In this document: in pieces, positions 17,115 to 47,261 of the stretch
Position numbering within the stretch: position 1 is the stretch's first letter
Layout of the letters: every line of letters begins with the position of its first letter
Assembly (NCBI GenBank): GCA_015059875.1
Contig: SUZQ01000001.1
Coordinates: forward strand, 1 to 64,000
Length of the DNA stretch: 64,000 bases
Reading direction: 5' to 3'
From: Rikenellaceae bacterium
GTDB taxonomy: Bacteria; Bacteroidota; Bacteroidia; Bacteroidales; Rikenellaceae
The notes under the pieces: generated by a model
Told to the model about the DNA's origin: nothing
What the model saw: only the letters and a program-made list of their open reading frames with translations
Database searches by the model: none
Position numbers and translations under genes: made by a program

Positions 17115-17193
17115 CTCAGCTAAATTGTCGTTTTCTCGATTCGTTTTAGTATATTTGCGCATTGATTGGACTTGATACACCACTTTGACATTC

Positions 17194-17316
17194 AAAATTG
17201 GAGGTGATTGAGGAAATTTTGTGCATTGCAAGGCGGTGAGTCCGCAGCATACTTGGCGTATGTGAGGAACTCAACGACCGCAGCAAGGTGCAAAATTTAC
17301 CAATCAGAACAATTTT
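17194..17316. repeat. Long-hairpin (MITE-like) intergenic element, copy A
   Basis: aaaattggaggtgattgaggaaattttgtgca...gcagcatac-ttggc-gtatgtgagg...ggtgcaaaatttaccaatcagaacaatttt; arms pair over the full length; homologous to 23658-23784. Confidence 0.85.
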
Positions 17317-17344
17317 AGAACAAAATGTAAAAACACAATACGGT

Positions 17345-18886
17345 ATGACACAGGAAGAACTATTTAAGAAGTTGATCGCGCACTGCAAGGAGTATGGCTT
17401 TATCTTCCCTTCGAGCGAGATTTATGATGGTCTGGGCGCAGTTTATGACTACGGTCAGAATGGTGTTGAGTTGAAGAATAACATCAAGAGATATTGGTGG
17501 GATTCGATGGTTAAGCTCCACGAGAACATTGTGGGTATTGATGCTGCCATCTTTATGCACCCAAAAACTTGGGAGGCTTCGGGCCATGTTGCAGCCTTCA
17601 ACGATCCGTTGATTGACAATAAGGACTCGAAGAAGCGTTATCGTGCCGATGTGCTTATCGAGGATTACCTCGCAAAGCTCGACGAGAAGATCGAGAAGGA
17701 GGTTGAGAAGGCTCGCAAGCGTTTTGGCGAGGCTTTCGATGAGGAGCAGTACCGCGCAACTTCGCCTCGCGTGAAGGAGATTTCGGAGAAGCGTGATGCT
17801 GTTCACGCCCGTTTTGCCGAGGCTTTGAACAACAACGACCTCGCTGAGTTGAAGCAGATTATCCTCGATTGCGAGGTTGTATGCCCTATTTCGGGTACTC
17901 GCAACTGGACCGATGTTCGTCAGTTCAACCTTATGTTCTCGACTCAGATGGGTTCGACTGCCGAGGGTGCAAATACAATCTACCTCCGCCCAGAGACTGC
18001 GCAGGGTATCTTCGTAAACTACCTCAATGTGCAGAAGACAGGTCGTATGAAGCTCCCATTCGGTATCGCACAGATTGGTAAGGCTTTCCGTAACGAGATT
18101 GTAGCTCGTCAGTTCATCTTCCGTATGCGCGAGTTCGAGCAGATGGAGATGCAGTTCTTCGTACAGCCTGGCACCGAGATGCAGTGGTGGAACGAGTGGA
18201 AGAATACCCGTATGGCTTGGCATCGCGCTTTGGGCTTCGGTGACGAGAACTACCGCTTCCACGACCACGACAAGTTGGCACACTATGCAAATGCCGCTAC
18301 CGATATCGAGTACAACTTCCCATTCGGTTTCAAGGAGGTGGAGGGTATCCACTCGCGTACCGATTTCGACCTCGGTCGTCATCAGGAGTACTCTGGTAAG
18401 AAGATTCAGTACTTCGATCCTGAGCGCGGCGAGAACTATGTTCCTTATGTTGTTGAGACCTCGATTGGTGTAGACCGTATGTTCTTGCAGATTATGTCGG
18501 CTGCATACTGCGAGGAGAAGCTCGAAAATGGCGAGGAGCGCGTAGTGTTGCGCATCCCTGCTTGCTTGGCTCCTACAAAGGTTGCCGTTATGCCACTCGT
18601 TAAGAAGGATGGACTTCCAGAGAAGGCTCGCGAGATAATCGATGCGTTGAAGTTCGACTTCAATGTTGCATACGACGAGAAGGATTCGATTGGCAAGCGT
18701 TACCGCCGTCAGGATGCCGTAGGTACTCCGTTCTGCGTAACCGTTGACCACCAGACCTTGGAGGACAACACCGTAACTGTTCGTCATCGCGACTCGATGC
18801 AGCAGGAGCGTGTGGCTATCGCAGATCTCTACTCGATGGTTGAGCGCGAAACATCGTTCCGCGAGTTGTACAAGAAGTTGAAGTAA
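17345..18886 (+). CDS. glyQS: Glycine--tRNA ligase (single-subunit type)
   Basis: MTQEELFKKLIAHCKEYGFIFPSSEIYDGLGAVYDYG; YLRPETAQGIFVNY. Track start at 17288 lies inside the upstream repeat; start moved to MTQEE. Confidence 0.95.
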   Translation: MTQEELFKKLIAHCKEYGFIFPSSEIYDGLGAVYDYGQNGVELKNNIKRYWWDSMVKLHENIVGIDAAIFMHPKTWEASGHVAAFNDPLIDNKDSKKRYRADVLIEDYLAKLDEKIEKEVEKARKRFGEAFDEEQYRATSPRVKEISEKRDAVHARFAEALNNNDLAELKQIILDCEVVCPISGTRNWTDVRQFNLMFSTQMGSTAEGANTIYLRPETAQGIFVNYLNVQKTGRMKLPFGIAQIGKAFRNEIVARQFIFRMREFEQMEMQFFVQPGTEMQWWNEWKNTRMAWHRALGFGDENYRFHDHDKLAHYANAATDIEYNFPFGFKEVEGIHSRTDFDLGRHQEYSGKKIQYFDPERGENYVPYVVETSIGVDRMFLQIMSAAYCEEKLENGEERVVLRIPACLAPTKVAVMPLVKKDGLPEKAREIIDALKFDFNVAYDEKDSIGKRYRRQDAVGTPFCVTVDHQTLEDNTVTVRHRDSMQQERVAIADLYSMVERETSFRELYKKLK

Positions 18887-23233: not shown

Positions 23234-23572
23234 CTACTTCTTCAACAGCGAATCGATATTCTCGATATACTCCAGTGAGTCGTCGATAAAGAACTGCAAC
23301 TCTGGGATAACCTTCACTTGGTGGCGCATACGGCGACCAAGCGCACCGCGAATGAGTCTGTTCTGCTGCTCGATAACCTCAAGTGTAGCTTGCGCCTTAT
23401 CGAACGGAAAGACACTCACATAAATCTTGGCATAACCCAAATCGGGCGAAACGCGCACAGCCGTTACCGTTGTCAGCACGCCTCGCAGCGACTCCGCTAT
23501 ATCGCGCTGAAAAATCTCAGCCACATCACGCTGAATCTGTTTTGCAATCTTCTCCTGTCTTGTATTCTCCAT
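23234..23572 (-). CDS. rbfA: Ribosome-binding factor A
   Basis: TRQEKIAKQIQRDVAEIFQRDIAESLRGVLTTVTAVRVSPDLGYAKIYVS. Confidence 0.93.
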   Translation of the reverse strand: MENTRQEKIAKQIQRDVAEIFQRDIAESLRGVLTTVTAVRVSPDLGYAKIYVSVFPFDKAQATLEVIEQQNRLIRGALGRRMRHQVKVIPELQFFIDDSLEYIENIDSLLKK

Positions 23573-23657: not shown

Positions 23658-23784
23658 AAAAATCGGAGGTGATGAGATTATTTTTGTGCGATGCTAGGCG
23701 ACAAATCCGCAGCATACTATGGCGTATGTGAGGAATTTGGCGACCGACGCACTCGTGCAAAAAGAACTCATCAGAACGATTTTT
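23658..23784. repeat. Long-hairpin (MITE-like) intergenic element, copy B
   Basis: aaaaatcggaggtgatgagattatttttgtgcg...gcagcatac-tatggc-gtatgtgagg...ctcgtgcaaaaagaactcatcagaacgattttt. Confidence 0.85.
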
Positions 23785-23787
23785 CGT

Positions 23788-24639
23788 TTAGAAGGTATAC
23801 TTAAACACCTCCTTATTCTTCGGGAAGGCAGGTCGCTTCCAATCCCACTCCTTGAAGCCCGCCTTGCCAATACGGAAGCCCACCTTCATCGAGATTGTCA
23901 AATTGTCAAGTGGCGAACGCAGAGGGGTGTTGTAGAAGGGATTTTCGCCTGGCTTCTCCACTCCATCCAAGTTGTTCGTATAGTACTTATTACGATTTCG
24001 CAATATGTCCGAATATCCAAAATCGTACATTGCTCGCACTCCGACCTCTATCTGACCGAATATAAGATCGAAACCTCCACCACCTCGCAAGCCGAACGAG
24101 AAGCGGTTGTCGCGCTCAAGGCGAAACTCATATTTGCCCTCCTTTATCGCCTCGAATGGGAGTACCGAGCCATCTTCGGTCATCGCGTAGATATACTCCT
24201 CCTCGTTATAGAACTTCGACGCAAAGTTGTACGAGAATGTTGGTGCCGCCTCCAAATAGATTCGCAAATGCTTCTTAAAGAGATAGAAGTGCGGTTGCCA
24301 CACAATCGGGATGATTATCGAATTGATAGTTCGTTTGTAGTACTTGTAATCCTTTTTGCTCTCGTAGAAATGCGGATAAGGCGCAAACGAAAAACCACGC
24401 TGCAACAACTCTACATCGATACCAAAGCAGGCGATAAATCGCGGCATCGAGTAGTATCGCCACGAAAAGCCCGCTTGATATGTACCCCAAATTGGCTTCA
24501 TCTCCTGATCTGGGTATGGGCGCGCCGTTGCATATCCCGTACCGCCCGTTACGGCGATAGTGTGCTGTGCCGAACTCTCCGCAACCGCAGCCACCGAGAG
24601 CGCAAACACAAGTGCCAATATCTTGATAAATCTCCTCAT
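23788..24639 (-). CDS. Outer-membrane beta-barrel protein
   Basis: Signal peptide MRRFIKILALVFALSVAAVAESSAQ, alternating beta strands, C-terminal F. Confidence 0.8.
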   Translation of the reverse strand: MRRFIKILALVFALSVAAVAESSAQHTIAVTGGTGYATARPYPDQEMKPIWGTYQAGFSWRYYSMPRFIACFGIDVELLQRGFSFAPYPHFYESKKDYKYYKRTINSIIIPIVWQPHFYLFKKHLRIYLEAAPTFSYNFASKFYNEEEYIYAMTEDGSVLPFEAIKEGKYEFRLERDNRFSFGLRGGGGFDLIFGQIEVGVRAMYDFGYSDILRNRNKYYTNNLDGVEKPGENPFYNTPLRSPLDNLTISMKVGFRIGKAGFKEWDWKRPAFPKNKEVFKYTF

Positions 24640-35123: not shown

Positions 35124-35154
35124 GGGAGTGTCTAACGAGTTTTTAGACACTCCC
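35124..35154. terminator. Terminator-like hairpin, copy 1 of a repeated hairpin
   Basis: gggagtgtctaa-cgagttt-ttagacactccc then aattttttt; nearly identical to 45078-45107. Confidence 0.85.
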
Positions 35155-40994: not shown

Positions 40995-43886
40995 ATGAAG
41001 AATTTATTTAAGAAGAGTATGCTTTTTGCTGCAGCAGCAATGGCATTTGTATCGTGCTCAAACGATGCAACTGAAGATGTAATCAACGGCCCAAGCTTTA
41101 AGGTCGAGGTAAATGCTGTAACTACCGATTCGCGTAGTGCATTCGGCGAGTTGAATGGCGACAAGTATCCAACTTTGTGGGAGGGCAACGAGTCGTGGTT
41201 TGTCGGCGTAAACAACGCTTATACAGAGGATGTAAACACAATTACCTTCTCGGAGGACAAGAAGTCGGCAAAGGCGATGGCTGCTTTTTCGAGTGAGCCT
41301 GTGGCAGATAATGGTACATACACTTTGTATGCATTGTCGCCATCAAGTGCGTGGTCATCGTATCATTTTGGCAACGACTACTTGCGTTTTTACATTGCAC
41401 GCAACATTCAGACGCCAACCGCCACTTCGTGCGATCCTGCTTCGCAGGTACTCTTCGCAAAGTCGGAGGCTATGAACAGTGCAAACTCTTTCAACATCGG
41501 CTTTGAGCATTTTTCGGCTTATGCAAAATTCTCGTTCAAGAATGTTGCTGAGGGTGGTGTTGTTAGCAGCGTGACCGTATCGGCTGAGGATGTAAACCTT
41601 GCTGGTCGCTACGCTTATACTCTTTCAACAGGTAAACTTGCTGAGCTTGACCGCTTGGAGAAGAGCATCACTTTGATGACCTCTTCAACTGAGAATTTGT
41701 GGATGGCGGTAGCTCCAGTAGATGTTTCGGGCAAGAAACTTACTTTCACTATCACAACCGATAAGGGCCTTCTTTCGAAGGAGGTTACAATGCCTGCAAC
41801 TGCAAAGTTTGAGTCGGGAAAGGTTGCTACATTCACAGTAGATATGTCGGGTATTGAGTACCCTGCTGTTGCAGGAGAGAATTGGCAGCTTGTTACGGCT
41901 GTTGCTAATGTTACTGCTGGTGAGTATATTGTTGTTGGTCCTCGCACAGACGGTAGCACTGTGGCTTATCTTCCAAGCACAACAATTGGCTCTTCTCCTT
42001 CTCAGAAGGTTATAAATATCCCAGGTCTTGATTTGAACAGCACCGATGTTATTACAACCACACTTGTTCCTGAGGATGCTCGCTTTACCTTTACGGGTAC
42101 AGCCACTGCCATGACTATTACAAATGCAGATGGTAATTATCTCTATACAACCACAGGCAACAATGGTCTTCGTGTTGGCACCACAAAGGGAACATGGGTT
42201 ATTGCAAGCAATCCAAATAGCGCAAAAGCCCTTACCTTGAAGTTCGATAGCACAGGTCGCTATGTAACTATGTACAATGATCAGGATTGGCGTTGCTACA
42301 CCTCAGTTTACGAGAAGTATAATGGCAACACCCAAAATGGTGAGATATACCTCTACAAGAAGGTAACAGGCGACGGTGGCGAGACTCCTGATGTTCCTGC
42401 AACTCCAGTGTTGGAGGTAAACCCTGCAACTGTTGAGGTTGCTGCTGCGGGTGGCAATGCAGAGTTCGGCTACACCGTAACTAACCCTGCTGAGGGCGTT
42501 AGTGTTGTGGCTTCGACTACCGCAAATTGGATTTCGGACTTCAACTATGCAACTGCTGGCAAGGTAACATTTACCGTTGCTGAGAATACCGTTGCTGAGG
42601 CTCGTGAGGCTGTTATTACCCTCGCTTACACTGGCGCAGAGAGCAAGACCGTAACCGTTAAGCAGGCTGCTGCCGAGGTTGGCGGTGGCGAAGGACAAAC
42701 ATGCACTGTTACTTATACTGTGGCAACAACATCGTCTTGCACAACATCGGGAACGGCTCCACAAGGCTCGTCAGCTAGCTACTCGCAAACATACGCTACT
42801 AAAGAGCAGTTAACAGCTGGAAATAGCGCAACCTTTACTCTGAAAGGTTATACTGGAGCAACCATTACGGGTATGGTTCTCAATATGAAATCAAATGCTA
42901 ACAAGGGTGCAGGTAAATTCTCGGTTGTTGCAGGCTCAACCACATTGGCTGCAATTAGCAGTGCAACAAACTTTAATGCTTGGTACGATAACAACTCTTA
43001 CGGAGGCACATTCCGTGATATCAATGTTGTGATGACTAATGATTCGTATGTTGTCGGAAATGGAGAGAATGTTGTGGTAAAATTTGAGGCAACAACTAAC
43101 TCGATCTATATTCATAGTATTACCCTTAAGTACACTCTTGGCGAGACTCCTGATGTTCCTGCAACTCCAGTGTTGGAGGTAAACCCTGCAACTGTTGAGG
43201 TTGCTGCGGCGGGTGGCAATGCAGAGTTCGGCTACACTGTAACAAACCCTGCTGAGGGTGTTAGTGTTATGGCTTCGACTACCGCAAATTGGATTTCGGA
43301 CTTCAACTATGCAACTGCTGGCAAGGTAACATTTACCGTTGCTGAGAATACCGTTGCTGAGGCTCGCGAGGCTGTTATTACCCTCGCTTACAGTGGAGCA
43401 GAGAGCAAGACCGTAACTGTTAAGCAGGCTGCAGCCGAGGTTGGCGGTGGCGACGAGCCAGGCACAAGTGTTGTAGTTCTCAGAGAGGAGTTTGATAATA
43501 CTACTACTGCCGATAGTAGCACAGCTATCAACACATCGAAATTCCCTAATTTCTCAGGTGCGACCTCAAAAGCTTTTACAAGTAAGTATGGAGGCTTGAA
43601 ATTTGGTTCTAGTTCTGCAGCAGGATATATAACATCTAAGTCGCTTGATCTCTCTTCGGCTTTTACAGTGCAGATAGATGCTTGTAAGTATGGTAGTGAT
43701 ACGGGAAATATTGTAGTAACTTGTGGTACTCAATCACAAACTATCCAAAATAGCGAGCTTGGTGCAGCTGGATCGTTCAAGACTTTTACTCTTACATTCG
43801 CAGCTGCTACGGCTACATCTACAGTAAAGATTGCTACATCAAGCAAACGAGCTTACATTGATAATGTAGTTATCACTCGAAATTGA
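40995..43886 (+). CDS. Fimbrillin-like/BACON-domain surface lipoprotein
   Basis: MKNLFKKSMLFAAAAMAFVSCSND lipobox; two BACON-type domains (VLEVNPATVEVAAAGGNAEFGYTVTNPAEG...ITLAY.GAESKTVTVKQAA). Confidence 0.8.
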   Translation: MKNLFKKSMLFAAAAMAFVSCSNDATEDVINGPSFKVEVNAVTTDSRSAFGELNGDKYPTLWEGNESWFVGVNNAYTEDVNTITFSEDKKSAKAMAAFSSEPVADNGTYTLYALSPSSAWSSYHFGNDYLRFYIARNIQTPTATSCDPASQVLFAKSEAMNSANSFNIGFEHFSAYAKFSFKNVAEGGVVSSVTVSAEDVNLAGRYAYTLSTGKLAELDRLEKSITLMTSSTENLWMAVAPVDVSGKKLTFTITTDKGLLSKEVTMPATAKFESGKVATFTVDMSGIEYPAVAGENWQLVTAVANVTAGEYIVVGPRTDGSTVAYLPSTTIGSSPSQKVINIPGLDLNSTDVITTTLVPEDARFTFTGTATAMTITNADGNYLYTTTGNNGLRVGTTKGTWVIASNPNSAKALTLKFDSTGRYVTMYNDQDWRCYTSVYEKYNGNTQNGEIYLYKKVTGDGGETPDVPATPVLEVNPATVEVAAAGGNAEFGYTVTNPAEGVSVVASTTANWISDFNYATAGKVTFTVAENTVAEAREAVITLAYTGAESKTVTVKQAAAEVGGGEGQTCTVTYTVATTSSCTTSGTAPQGSSASYSQTYATKEQLTAGNSATFTLKGYTGATITGMVLNMKSNANKGAGKFSVVAGSTTLAAISSATNFNAWYDNNSYGGTFRDINVVMTNDSYVVGNGENVVVKFEATTNSIYIHSITLKYTLGETPDVPATPVLEVNPATVEVAAAGGNAEFGYTVTNPAEGVSVMASTTANWISDFNYATAGKVTFTVAENTVAEAREAVITLAYSGAESKTVTVKQAAAEVGGGDEPGTSVVVLREEFDNTTTADSSTAINTSKFPNFSGATSKAFTSKYGGLKFGSSSAAGYITSKSLDLSSAFTVQIDACKYGSDTGNIVVTCGTQSQTIQNSELGAAGSFKTFTLTFAAATATSTVKIATSSKRAYIDNVVITRN
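42379..42690 (+). repeat. 312-bp intragenic duplication (BACON domain), copy 1
   Basis: About 302/312 identical to 43140-43451 by hand comparison. Confidence 0.9.
43140..43451 (+). repeat. 312-bp intragenic duplication (BACON domain), copy 2
   Basis: See copy 1. Confidence 0.9.
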
Positions 43887-45011
43887 GACTCGGGTAGTGG
43901 AGAGGGAGGGGGTACTACCCCTCCCACCACAGACCCTACCCCGGGACTAACTAACATATCAGCTTCGCTCAACGGCACTTTGGCGTGGGCAGGTTGCGTG
44001 GTGGAGTCACCGGAGTATATCTCGAATGGCTTGGTTACCTTCCACTTCAACGCCACAAACGGCTCGCACACAACCTCCGCTTCGTACAGCGTCGGCACGA
44101 CACAGACTTACGCGCAGGTGAGCAATGTGCAGCTCAAAGCCGCTACAACATACAAGGTGTACGCCTCGTGTACAGCGACAAACGGCTCGACTGTGACCTC
44201 GCCAAACTACGAGATTACAACCGCAGGTCAGGGTGCTGCGCCAAGCGAAAGCTGGCTTGAGTTGCCTGCAGCGGATAACGGTACGCTCTATCCGAACGCC
44301 ACAGAGTACACGGTTTCGGCAAATGGCGAGCGCAACTACACCATCTACTACGACAAATCGACCTACACCTCGATGTGGGTGGCTTATCCTCTCGAATCGA
44401 GGCACATGGGCGACTTATCACGCCCAAGCTCGTGGTCGTTCAACCCGTTGTTCAGCTCAAGCGATCAGGTTGATTTGTGCAGCTCCTCATACGAAGGCGG
44501 TACATACTCGCGCGGTCACCTTATTCCAAACGCTTCGCGCAACGGTATCGCGCTGATGCAGAAACAGACATTCTATGTGACCAACTCTGTGCCGCAGGTG
44601 CAGACGAGATTCAACGATGGCATCTGGAACTCGTTGGAGCAGGCTTTGCAGGGTATTGCCAAGAGTGAGAAGATATATATCGTAACTGGTGTTGCCTTCG
44701 AGAAGGCAGGCGAGTCGAAAACTATAAAATATATTCAGGCAAAGGACGACACAAAGGATGTGCCTATTCCAAACTACTTCTACAAGGTTGTCTTGAAGGT
44801 TACAACCAACGGAAGTGGCACGGTGACAGCCGCATCGACAATCGGTTTTTGGTTTGAGAATAAGGCTTACACCGACTCCTACACCAACTACTCTGTTTCG
44901 GTGGATCAGATTGAGGCGTGGACAGGTTTCGACTTCTTTGCAAACCTCCCCGACAACATAGAGAACTCGGTGGAGAGCAATTCAAACTGGTCGTCGTTCC
45001 AAAGCTTCTAA
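43887..45011 (+). pseudogene. DNA/RNA non-specific endonuclease (NUC1-like) domain, in frame with the upstream lipoprotein after a single TGA
   Basis: YSRGHLIPNASRN (DRGH-like) motif; frame open from 43887 right after TGA 43884-43886 (DSGSGEGGGTTPPTTDPTPGLTNISASLNG...); no signal peptide or convincing start of its own. Confidence 0.7.
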
Positions 45012-45077
45012 AGAGTAGTTCTGATTGGCTCTTTTTGAGTCGCTCTTCAGTAGCCCGATGGCTCACATAGTGAAATT

Positions 45078-45107
45078 GGGAGTGTCTAACAAGTTTTTAG
45101 ACACTCC
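45078..45107. terminator. Terminator-like hairpin, copy 2 of the repeated hairpin
   Basis: gggagtgtctaa-caagtt-tttagacactccc then aatttt; nearly identical to 35124-35154. Confidence 0.85.
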
Positions 45108-45155
45108 CAATTTTGTTAGAAGTTGTATAACAAGAGGGATTAACGCCGAAATCAC

Positions 45156-47261
45156 CTATTTTAAGTATTTATCCAACCAACCGAAGAACTCTCTGTTCCA
45201 GACTAACGAGTTTTGAGGTTTGAATACCTGATGTGCCTCGTTCTCGAACGAAACCAATCGTGCAGGAATGCCGCGCAATCGAGCCGCTGTAAACGCCTCC
45301 AACGACTGCGTGTATGGGATTCGGTAGTCGCGCTCGCCCGTGATAATCAAGATAGGGGTATCCCACCTATCCACCGCCTTGTGTGGCGAGTTGGCATAAG
45401 AGCGCATAGCGGTCTTGTTATCCTTCTCCCAATATGCGCCTCCGTAGTCGTTGTTTACGAAGAACAGCTCCTCGGTGTGTCCGTACATCGACTCGAAATT
45501 GAAGATTCCGCAGTGGGCAATAAACGCCTTGAAACGCTTCTCGTGGTGTCCTGCGAGGTAGAATGTTGAGTAGCCGCCATACGACGCTCCAACGCAGCCC
45601 AAACGCTCGTTATCGCACCACTTCTCCTTTGCAACATCGTCAATAGCTGCGAGGTAGTCGCGGATATTCTGTCCCGAATAGTCGCCCGAAATCTGATCCA
45701 ACCACTCCTGACCGAACGATGGTACGCCGCGACGATTAGGAGCGACCACAACATAGCCCTGCGCCGCCATCAGCTGGAAGTTCCAGCGATAGCTCCAGAA
45801 CTGCGAAACAACGCTCTGCGGGCCACCCTGACAATAGAGCAGAGTCGGGTACTTTTTGTTTGCGTCAAAATCGGGCGGAAAAATCACCCAAGTGAGCATC
45901 TTTTTGCCATCGGTGGTCTTAACCCATCGCTTCTGCACCTCGCCCATCTTGATATTGTTGTAGACAAAGTCGTTTACGGCGGTAAGCTTTGTCATAGCTC
46001 CATTTGCGAGGTCAAACTCGAAGATTTCGGGAGCCATCGAGATGGTCATCACCGAGCCAACGCACTTGCCACCGCCCAACTCAAACGAGTTGATGTCGTG
46101 GTCGCCCTTCGTGATAACCTCCACATCGCTTAAGCCATCCGCCTTAACGCGACAAATCTGATGTGTCGCCTCGATTGGCGCGATGAAGTAGATTGTTTCA
46201 TCGTCGGCCCACGCCACATTTGTTGCGTGATAGTCGAAATTTGGAGTCAGATATTTCACCTCGCCTGAAGTGAAATCGTAGACCATAAGTCGCTCCTTGT
46301 CCGCCTCGTTACCTGCGCGCTCCTGCGAACGGAAGGCGATCTTCGAGCCGCTTGGCGACCATACGGGATACTTGTCGTAACCCACAAATGGGAGGTGTGC
46401 AACCTCTTTGCATATATTGCGCGTAGTGCCACTCTGAAGGTCGTATACGAAAATGTCCGAGTCTGTCGATACGGCATACTCCGTACCAGTCAGAGGCTTG
46501 CAAGTGTAGGCGAGTTGCTTTCCATCAGGACTCCACGCAATCTCAGCGTGGTCGAAATATGGAGCAAGCGGAGTGTCCCAAGCCGACTTCTCGCCCGTAA
46601 TATCTTTGCCCGTGCCGACACCATTTGCCAACAGATCGGCAACAAAGATGTGGAGGTACTTTCCGCTATCCCAATAGTCCCAATGGCGCACCATCAAGTC
46701 GTCGTAGATGCGAGCCTTCGACTTCGCCATATCGCTGTGAATATCGGCAGAGTTTATATTCTTGGCGTGAACATACTGCGTGTAGTAGATGTGCTGCTCG
46801 TCGGGTGCGATGCCAAAACCCTCGATACCGCCCTCGATATTGGAAATCTGCTTCGGTTGCGAGCCATCCGCCTGCATCTTCCACAACTGCATATCGCCGC
46901 TGCGCGTCGTTGCAAACCAGATATCTGCACCATCGGCACTCCACACGGGCGAAACAGAGGTCGCTTCAAGGTCGGTAAGCTCCACCTCCTCGCCCGTTGC
47001 GAGGTTACGGCTTACGATGATTGTGATGCCACGATTCTCCTCCATATTGTAGCGCGTGAGGGTGTAGAGAAGTGTCGTGCCGTCGGGCGAAAGTGCGTGT
47101 TCACCAATACGCCCCATCTTCCACATAACCTCTGGAGTGAGGCGTGCCGCAGCAATCTCCTCTGCCGTTAGCGCGTTGTCAATTTTGAGAGGCTCAGGGG
47201 CTGTGTTGCACCCCGCAAAGCCCGAAAGTAGTAATGCCATAGCAATAAATAGTTTTTTCAT
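45156..47261 (-). CDS. S9 family prolyl oligopeptidase (DPP/acylaminoacyl peptidase-like), lipoprotein
   Basis: [32 protein letters not shown] (GxSxGG); N-terminal lipobox FAGC; TolB-like propeller. Confidence 0.94.

Follow-up and report, generated by a model that had tools for sequence, protein, structure and literature searches.

A mobile, cross-phylum family of palindromic DNA elements related to RPE1, with two copies in a 64,000-nt Rikenellaceae window

The window analyzed here, a 64,000-nt stretch of contig SUZQ01000001.1 from a Rikenellaceae bacterium, carries two long hairpins, A and B, both belonging to a palindromic mobile DNA element whose nearest named relative is Rickettsia palindromic element 1 (RPE1). 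Their family is real, mobile, and spread across phyla: it is multicopy, it inserts, and its members join an invariant apical hairpin to a very variable self-complementary stem, usually placed in one orientation at a stop codon. Our explanation as a whole, to which we give a probability of about 0.62, is that A and B would be non-autonomous mobile palindromes of about 125 bp homologous to RPE1, recognized in trans through the folded strand that carries the conserved core and altered in blocks along their arms. The two copies and their cores are as follows.

17194 to 17316, + strand: palindromic element, very probably RPE1-type, copy A (fold z-scores; model R1)
17242 to 17268, + strand: invariant apical core of copy A, CCGCAGCATAC-TTGGC-GTATGTGAGGA (core pattern; invariant columns among 51 aligned copies)
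23658 to 23784, + strand: palindromic element, very probably RPE1-type, copy B (fold z -5.5; model R1)
23707 to 23734, + strand: invariant apical core of copy B, with loop TATGGC (core pattern)

Both copies lie at the stated coordinates and fold end to end, as the first-pass annotation had described for copy A; their z-scores range from about -5.5 to -6.7, and no shuffled sequence folds as well. Copy A reaches -47.3 kcal/mol as RNA (z -5.9; 0/200 shuffles as good) and -30.3 as single-stranded DNA (z -6.7), and copy B reaches -50.4 as RNA (z -5.5; 0/200). A covariance model of the family, R1, seeded with 51 sequences (5 of them from outside Bacteroidota), scored 85.5 bits for copy A at 17193-17320 and 80.3 bits for copy B at 23658-23787 when run against the window. 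Weak R1 matches at 45008-45175 can be read from their sequence as decayed remnants of the element.

45008 to 45099, - strand: putative truncated remnant, a half copy that ends at the core and adjoins a stop codon (R1, 20.6 bits; sequence)
45070 to 45175, + strand: second putative remnant (AAGTTGTATAACAAGAGGGATTAACGCCGAAATCACC) with its centre deleted, plus a terminator-like hairpin (R1, 23.5 bits, E 0.006; sequence)

The two remnants lie around the terminator-like hairpin GGGAGTGTCTAACAAGTTTTTAGACACTCCC, a second copy of which is found at 35124.

The core pattern CCGCAGCATAC-N4-6-GTATGTGAGGA has 22 exact occurrences in the 2.07-Mb genome of the window, against none for a reversed-pattern control, so the element is far from unique to the two sites. 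This copy number and the empty orthologous sites described below bear out the multicopy, MITE-like character proposed in the first-pass annotation. Another genome of the genus (G001) holds 32 copies, and the pattern is present in 22 of 37 genus genomes and in 0 of 24 genomes from other families of the order. The 218 copies fetched, nearly all of which fold as one long hairpin, collapse into 115 clusters at 80% arm identity, with a median arm identity between copies of 37%; the palindromes, paired end to end, measure about 105-150 bp, typically ~125 bp. A core scan of GTDB genomes gave, among the matches listed, ruminant-gut Alistipes-like genomes, Tidjanibacter, and Cryptobacteroides, and also Nitrospirae, Deltaproteobacteria, Legionellales, Nevskia, Gallionella, Pantoea, Erwinia, Winslowiella, Pseudobacteriovorax, and a Rickettsia. 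Besides the clade of the window, Nitrospirota, Gamma- and Deltaproteobacteria, and some distant Bacteroidota have copies, and 20 nt of the core are invariant across phyla. Matches number 83 in the Rickettsia genome and 35 in a Nitrospirae genome; among enterobacteria, three genera have copies separating nuoL from nuoM. Among 297 Bacteroidota genomes scanned, 29 had matches (6 of 141 genera), mostly within one family of small genomes outside the class of the window, at a guess Chlorobi, with the variant apex GGAGCGTAC/GTACGTGAGG. None of the 4227 Rfam families matched, nor did phages to the DNA of copy A or plasmids to that of a Rickettsia copy, and a literature search for the core as a string returned nothing relevant.

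In the accessible literature RPEs are described as Rickettsia-specific (PMC2229807, PMC5799277); for RPE1, PMC2229807 and PMC10969869 cite Ogata and co-workers. A Rickettsia copy outside the R1 seed (L059:3001-3126) is detected by the model at 48.2 bits (E 1.6e-8), and it lies inside an ORF whose residues 235-282 match the NCBIfam model of RPE1, TIGR01045, at 68 bits (E 4e-19; cut-off 30 bits). A second Rickettsia copy scores 81 bits with R1. Ten peptides from other copies divide into five that match RPE1 and no other family, all below the cut-off, and five that match nothing. The peptide of a Legionellales copy matches RPE1 at E 1e-4, and those of gut Bacteroidota, Nitrospirae, and Nevskia copies match it weakly (E 0.01-0.06); the copy B peptide has no match to TIGR01045. 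We are thus fairly sure of a family identity that we word as RPE1-type and not as RPE1 proper, because the peptides encoded in Bacteroidota and Nitrospirae fall below the TIGR01045 cut-off. RPE1 and the window family are homologous by the covariance model and have in common a 125-bp palindrome, dispersed multicopy occurrence, the lack of a known transposase, and the core, which in RPE1 is read as A-A-Y..V-R-E-D. They differ in that RPE1 is described as Rickettsia-specific and is often fused in frame inside ORFs, whereas copies of the window family mostly lie right after stop codons in the opposite strand sense, have many closed frames, and vary widely in their arms.

What is new here is that the right end of the element, which lies 36-60 nt from the core, meets the stop codon of a neighbouring gene oriented towards it. 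In Bacteroidota, 101 of the 139 copies with a right-hand gene pointing into them have its stop codon at that distance, against 5/97 in the mirror arrangement; outside Bacteroidota the figures are 19/23 and 0/11. These counts rest on longest-ORF gene calls. Host stop codons are TAA in 79 cases, TAG in 35, and TGA in 7, and the host genes are often housekeeping genes with natural C-termini, judged from sequence to be pgk, fba, dnaK, lptB, and pta. A candidate class of attC-like boxes was discarded as a general feature, GTCTAAC standing next to the stop in some subfamilies and being absent from others. Copy B belongs to the stop-codon-abutting class, between these two genes.

23788 to 24639, - strand: gene of 283 aa that ends in TAA at the edge of copy B (no element at this site in sister species G005)
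23234 to 23572, - strand: downstream gene, presumably rbfA-like as judged from its N-terminus (directly after the empty site in G005)

The automatic gene call at copy B missed the stop codon (23788-23790) and was corrected by hand.

Insertion is demonstrated by empty orthologous sites in the nearest relative, the sister species G005, where no element is present at site B or at pta, fba, lptB, and a DUF5606-like gene. At B, the G005 gene ends TAG-ACGATAG and the next gene follows. At pgk and an AraC-like gene both genomes have a copy, with different arms, which could reflect either block exchange or independent re-insertion. G001 has undergone recent amplification: some ten of its copies are nearly identical to one another, and many of these lie at the ends of contigs (subfamily L174, L176, L185, L186, L188, L191, L196, L198, L199, and L200). 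The repeated unit in this subfamily includes a terminator-like hairpin on the left, with the host stop within about 10 nt on the right; in L176 the extra hairpin itself has compensated arm differences. Head-to-tail tandem arrays of three copies occur with periods of about 124, 143, and 260 bp (L117/L181 on G001 C35, L145, and L008). TA is found at the far end of the element in 16/102 copies against a background of 8%, which supports a TA target duplication weakly at best. Palindromy reaches into the coding ends of fba and the AraC-like gene, and outer arms match their own partners better than foreign ones, moderately so. The idea that outer arms are inverted copies of the host flank is not general, because the stop-side arm is missing from the empty sites at pta, lptB, and B.

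The first-pass annotation had pointed to compensated differences between the arms of A and B and had read covarying arms as the mark of a MITE or a structured RNA. The compensated differences are real on sequence comparison, and the covariation proved strong once many copies were aligned. In the 51-sequence alignment, 89% of cells are paired and 142 have changed on both sides (52 expected); the covariation score is 0.362, against 0.106 +/- 0.012 for shuffled alignments, none of 500 reaching it, and the signal is destroyed by sliding the partner any 1-3 columns. Among the 115 representatives, most of positions 3-11 to the left of the core pair with 2-10 to its right, using all four Watson-Crick types (Z 6.7-11.3). 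Apical pairs are invariant in these data because the pattern search required them. G.U cells (40 observed, 110 expected) and A.C mismatches (27 against 125) are depleted to a similar degree; slow compensation, which predicts G.U intermediates, is therefore unsupported. The MITE-like half of the earlier reading is thus supported, and an ordinary structured RNA kept by slow compensation is not.

The copy at glyQS suggests how arms can change together. Its setting comprises the following.

17345 to 18886, + strand: glyQS (glycyl-tRNA synthetase), true start ATG 17345 (homologue alignment)
17150 to 17158, + strand: TATATTTGC, a lookalike of the Bacteroidota -7 promoter box (sequence; putative promoter)

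The GTG at 17288 listed as the glyQS start does fall inside copy A, as the first-pass annotation had remarked. That start is an artefact, because in 38 of 41 genus genomes the first residue of the homologue aligns with ATG 17345. As an insertion copy A is atypical: it occupies the leader that separates glyQS from the upstream gene, and its core strand is sense. If TATATTTGC is the promoter, copy A would sit within the transcribed leader in that sense; a similar TATCTTTGC stands upstream of glyQS in relatives. Among the upstream regions of ~30 genus members, the insertion is common to the window genome (G000) and one sister species (G005) only, so the case for a role of the element in glyQS is weak. 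To the left of the element, the G005 leader (L238) also has a shortened second palindrome (GATTGGCAAGAAAGCCTTGCGCAAAATTAACCAATC), whose counterpart in the window is degenerate.

Between these two species the outer arms of the glyQS copy show one difference each per about 45 positions and the coding sequences are identical at 332/360, yet a central block of about 42 nt has nearly half of its positions changed, with five base pairs altered on both sides. Changes confined to one sharply bounded block of the two arms suggest exchange more than stepwise compensation, and part of the covariation would thus be block exchange between copies. Several other copies in the genome have the same 35-nt apex as copy A, which was therefore most simply copied in. 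The data fit template switching inside the hairpin as well as ectopic exchange; either process would keep the arms complementary without slow compensatory mutation.

Mismatches on the core strand are purine-purine in 766 cases and pyrimidine-pyrimidine in 138, a direction seen in 110 of 115 copies, and 70% of its unpaired bases are purines. Folded nucleic acids favour purines in loops; the core strand is therefore probably the functional, folding strand, and single-stranded DNA and RNA fit this purine test alike. We propose, tentatively, that a trans-acting factor would recognize the core strand in its folded state, whether single-stranded DNA or RNA, through the apical GCAGC-TAC / GTA-GTGAGG motif and the purine mismatches, and that the element would be inserted next to stop codons or retained only there. 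The complement strand would become the start of the 3'UTR of the host gene and may affect mRNA ends, but the pattern of mismatches gives no hint that the structure is maintained for this effect.

The strongest competitor holds that the element is a structured 3'UTR RNA acting in termination, mRNA protection, or as an RNase site, maintained by selection on the mRNA-sense strand and multiplied through duplication. The tight one-orientation placement after stop codons would suit it, as would the many copies after housekeeping genes such as pgk, fba, and dnaK and a near-identical copy at a wbjC-like gene common to the window genome and G005, with 1 difference in about 135 positions where the adjacent coding sequence is identical at 268/300. 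Yet the core strand is antisense to the mRNA of the abutting gene, which argues against an RNA function in the 3'UTR as the reason for the structure, and the purine-rich unpaired bases of the core strand are pyrimidine-rich on the mRNA. Moreover, the mRNA-sense strand shows no enrichment of G.U pairs (on the core strand G.U slightly outnumbers A.C, and on the mRNA strand the balance is reversed), and at the orthologous sites compared, sharing was seen with the sister species only. We regard this explanation as unlikely.

Less probable still is membership in the enterobacterial ERIC/IRU family, a 127-bp imperfect intergenic palindrome that is transcribed with its neighbours and has no known mobilizer; its Yersinia members, when placed at 3' ends, influence mRNA decay according to their orientation (PMC2229807, PMC10969869). 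Size, palindromy, intergenic position, and a similar-looking apex (GCTTAC-ATAA-GTAAGTGA in E. coli ERIC) made kinship convincing by eye, but ERIC went undetected by R1 even with filters off and by nhmmer models from these copies; the two families are alike in design, with no sequence homology detected. Slighter still are the chances that the element is REP-type and mobilized by a Y1 (RAYT) transposase, or that it moves by reverse transcription: a multicopy hairpin with asymmetric mismatches would fit either, but Y1_Tnp occurs in 0/41 genus genomes and RVT_1 in none of the high-copy genomes G000, G001, G005, G024, G027, and G034. The genomes searched for mobilizing enzymes are 71-99% complete; IS630 DDE_3 was found above cut-off in none of them, and IS110 was absent from them too, high-copy genomes included. 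Ordinary intrinsic terminators alike by convergence, which the A-tract and T-tract flanks and the position after stop codons might suggest, are refuted by the invariant 20-nt core across phyla and the empty sites, and near-identical dispersed copies speak against them as well.

The mobile RPE1-related palindrome that we favour can also be set beside other elements by their descriptions. QMITE2 of Coxiella burnetii lies mainly in 3'UTRs and overlaps gene ends by a few bp; it measures 150-190 bp, contains a GTAG REP, has direct repeats of 7-11 nt, and is a target of IS1111 (PMC5896051). Its gene-end placement thus resembles that of the window family, whereas size, REP, and repeats differ. BrickBuilt, a MITE of Porphyromonas gingivalis named in PMC10969869, is likewise intergenic in Bacteroidota.

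The accessible literature treats RPEs as a Rickettsia oddity; relatives are now seen in gut and other Bacteroidota, Nitrospirota, and enterobacteria. RPE1-type elements may be cross-phylum mobile hairpins, fixed in orientation beside stop codons, with a putative enzyme acting on the folded core strand and arms rewritten in blocks, a generalization we rate below even odds; if it holds, hairpin shape, not sequence, is what is inherited. Empty sites, an amplified subfamily, and strict stop-codon placement offer a handle for finding the mobilizer. For repeated hairpins in general, our data suggest that covariation can come from block exchange and call for caution in taking it as proof of RNA function.

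Other repeats accompany the element. A 42-aa gene (MKKNILSYSAPEVEIYVVAAERGYGDSVLLPGFGTEDDELVY), repeated in the right flanks of L016, L017, and L019 (contigs C56 and C69 of the window genome), ends directly at copies of one subfamily, and hence gene and abutting element may have been amplified together. A short tandem palindrome of the AGCTAATGGCCAATGGCTAATAGC type has many intergenic copies in the window on either strand (727, 3124, 3372, 6949, 10599, 19928, 23577, 33004, and 48154), one of which adjoins copy B. The window also contains a direct duplication of 300 nt, 97% identical and 762 nt apart, at 42377-42676 and 43139-43438.
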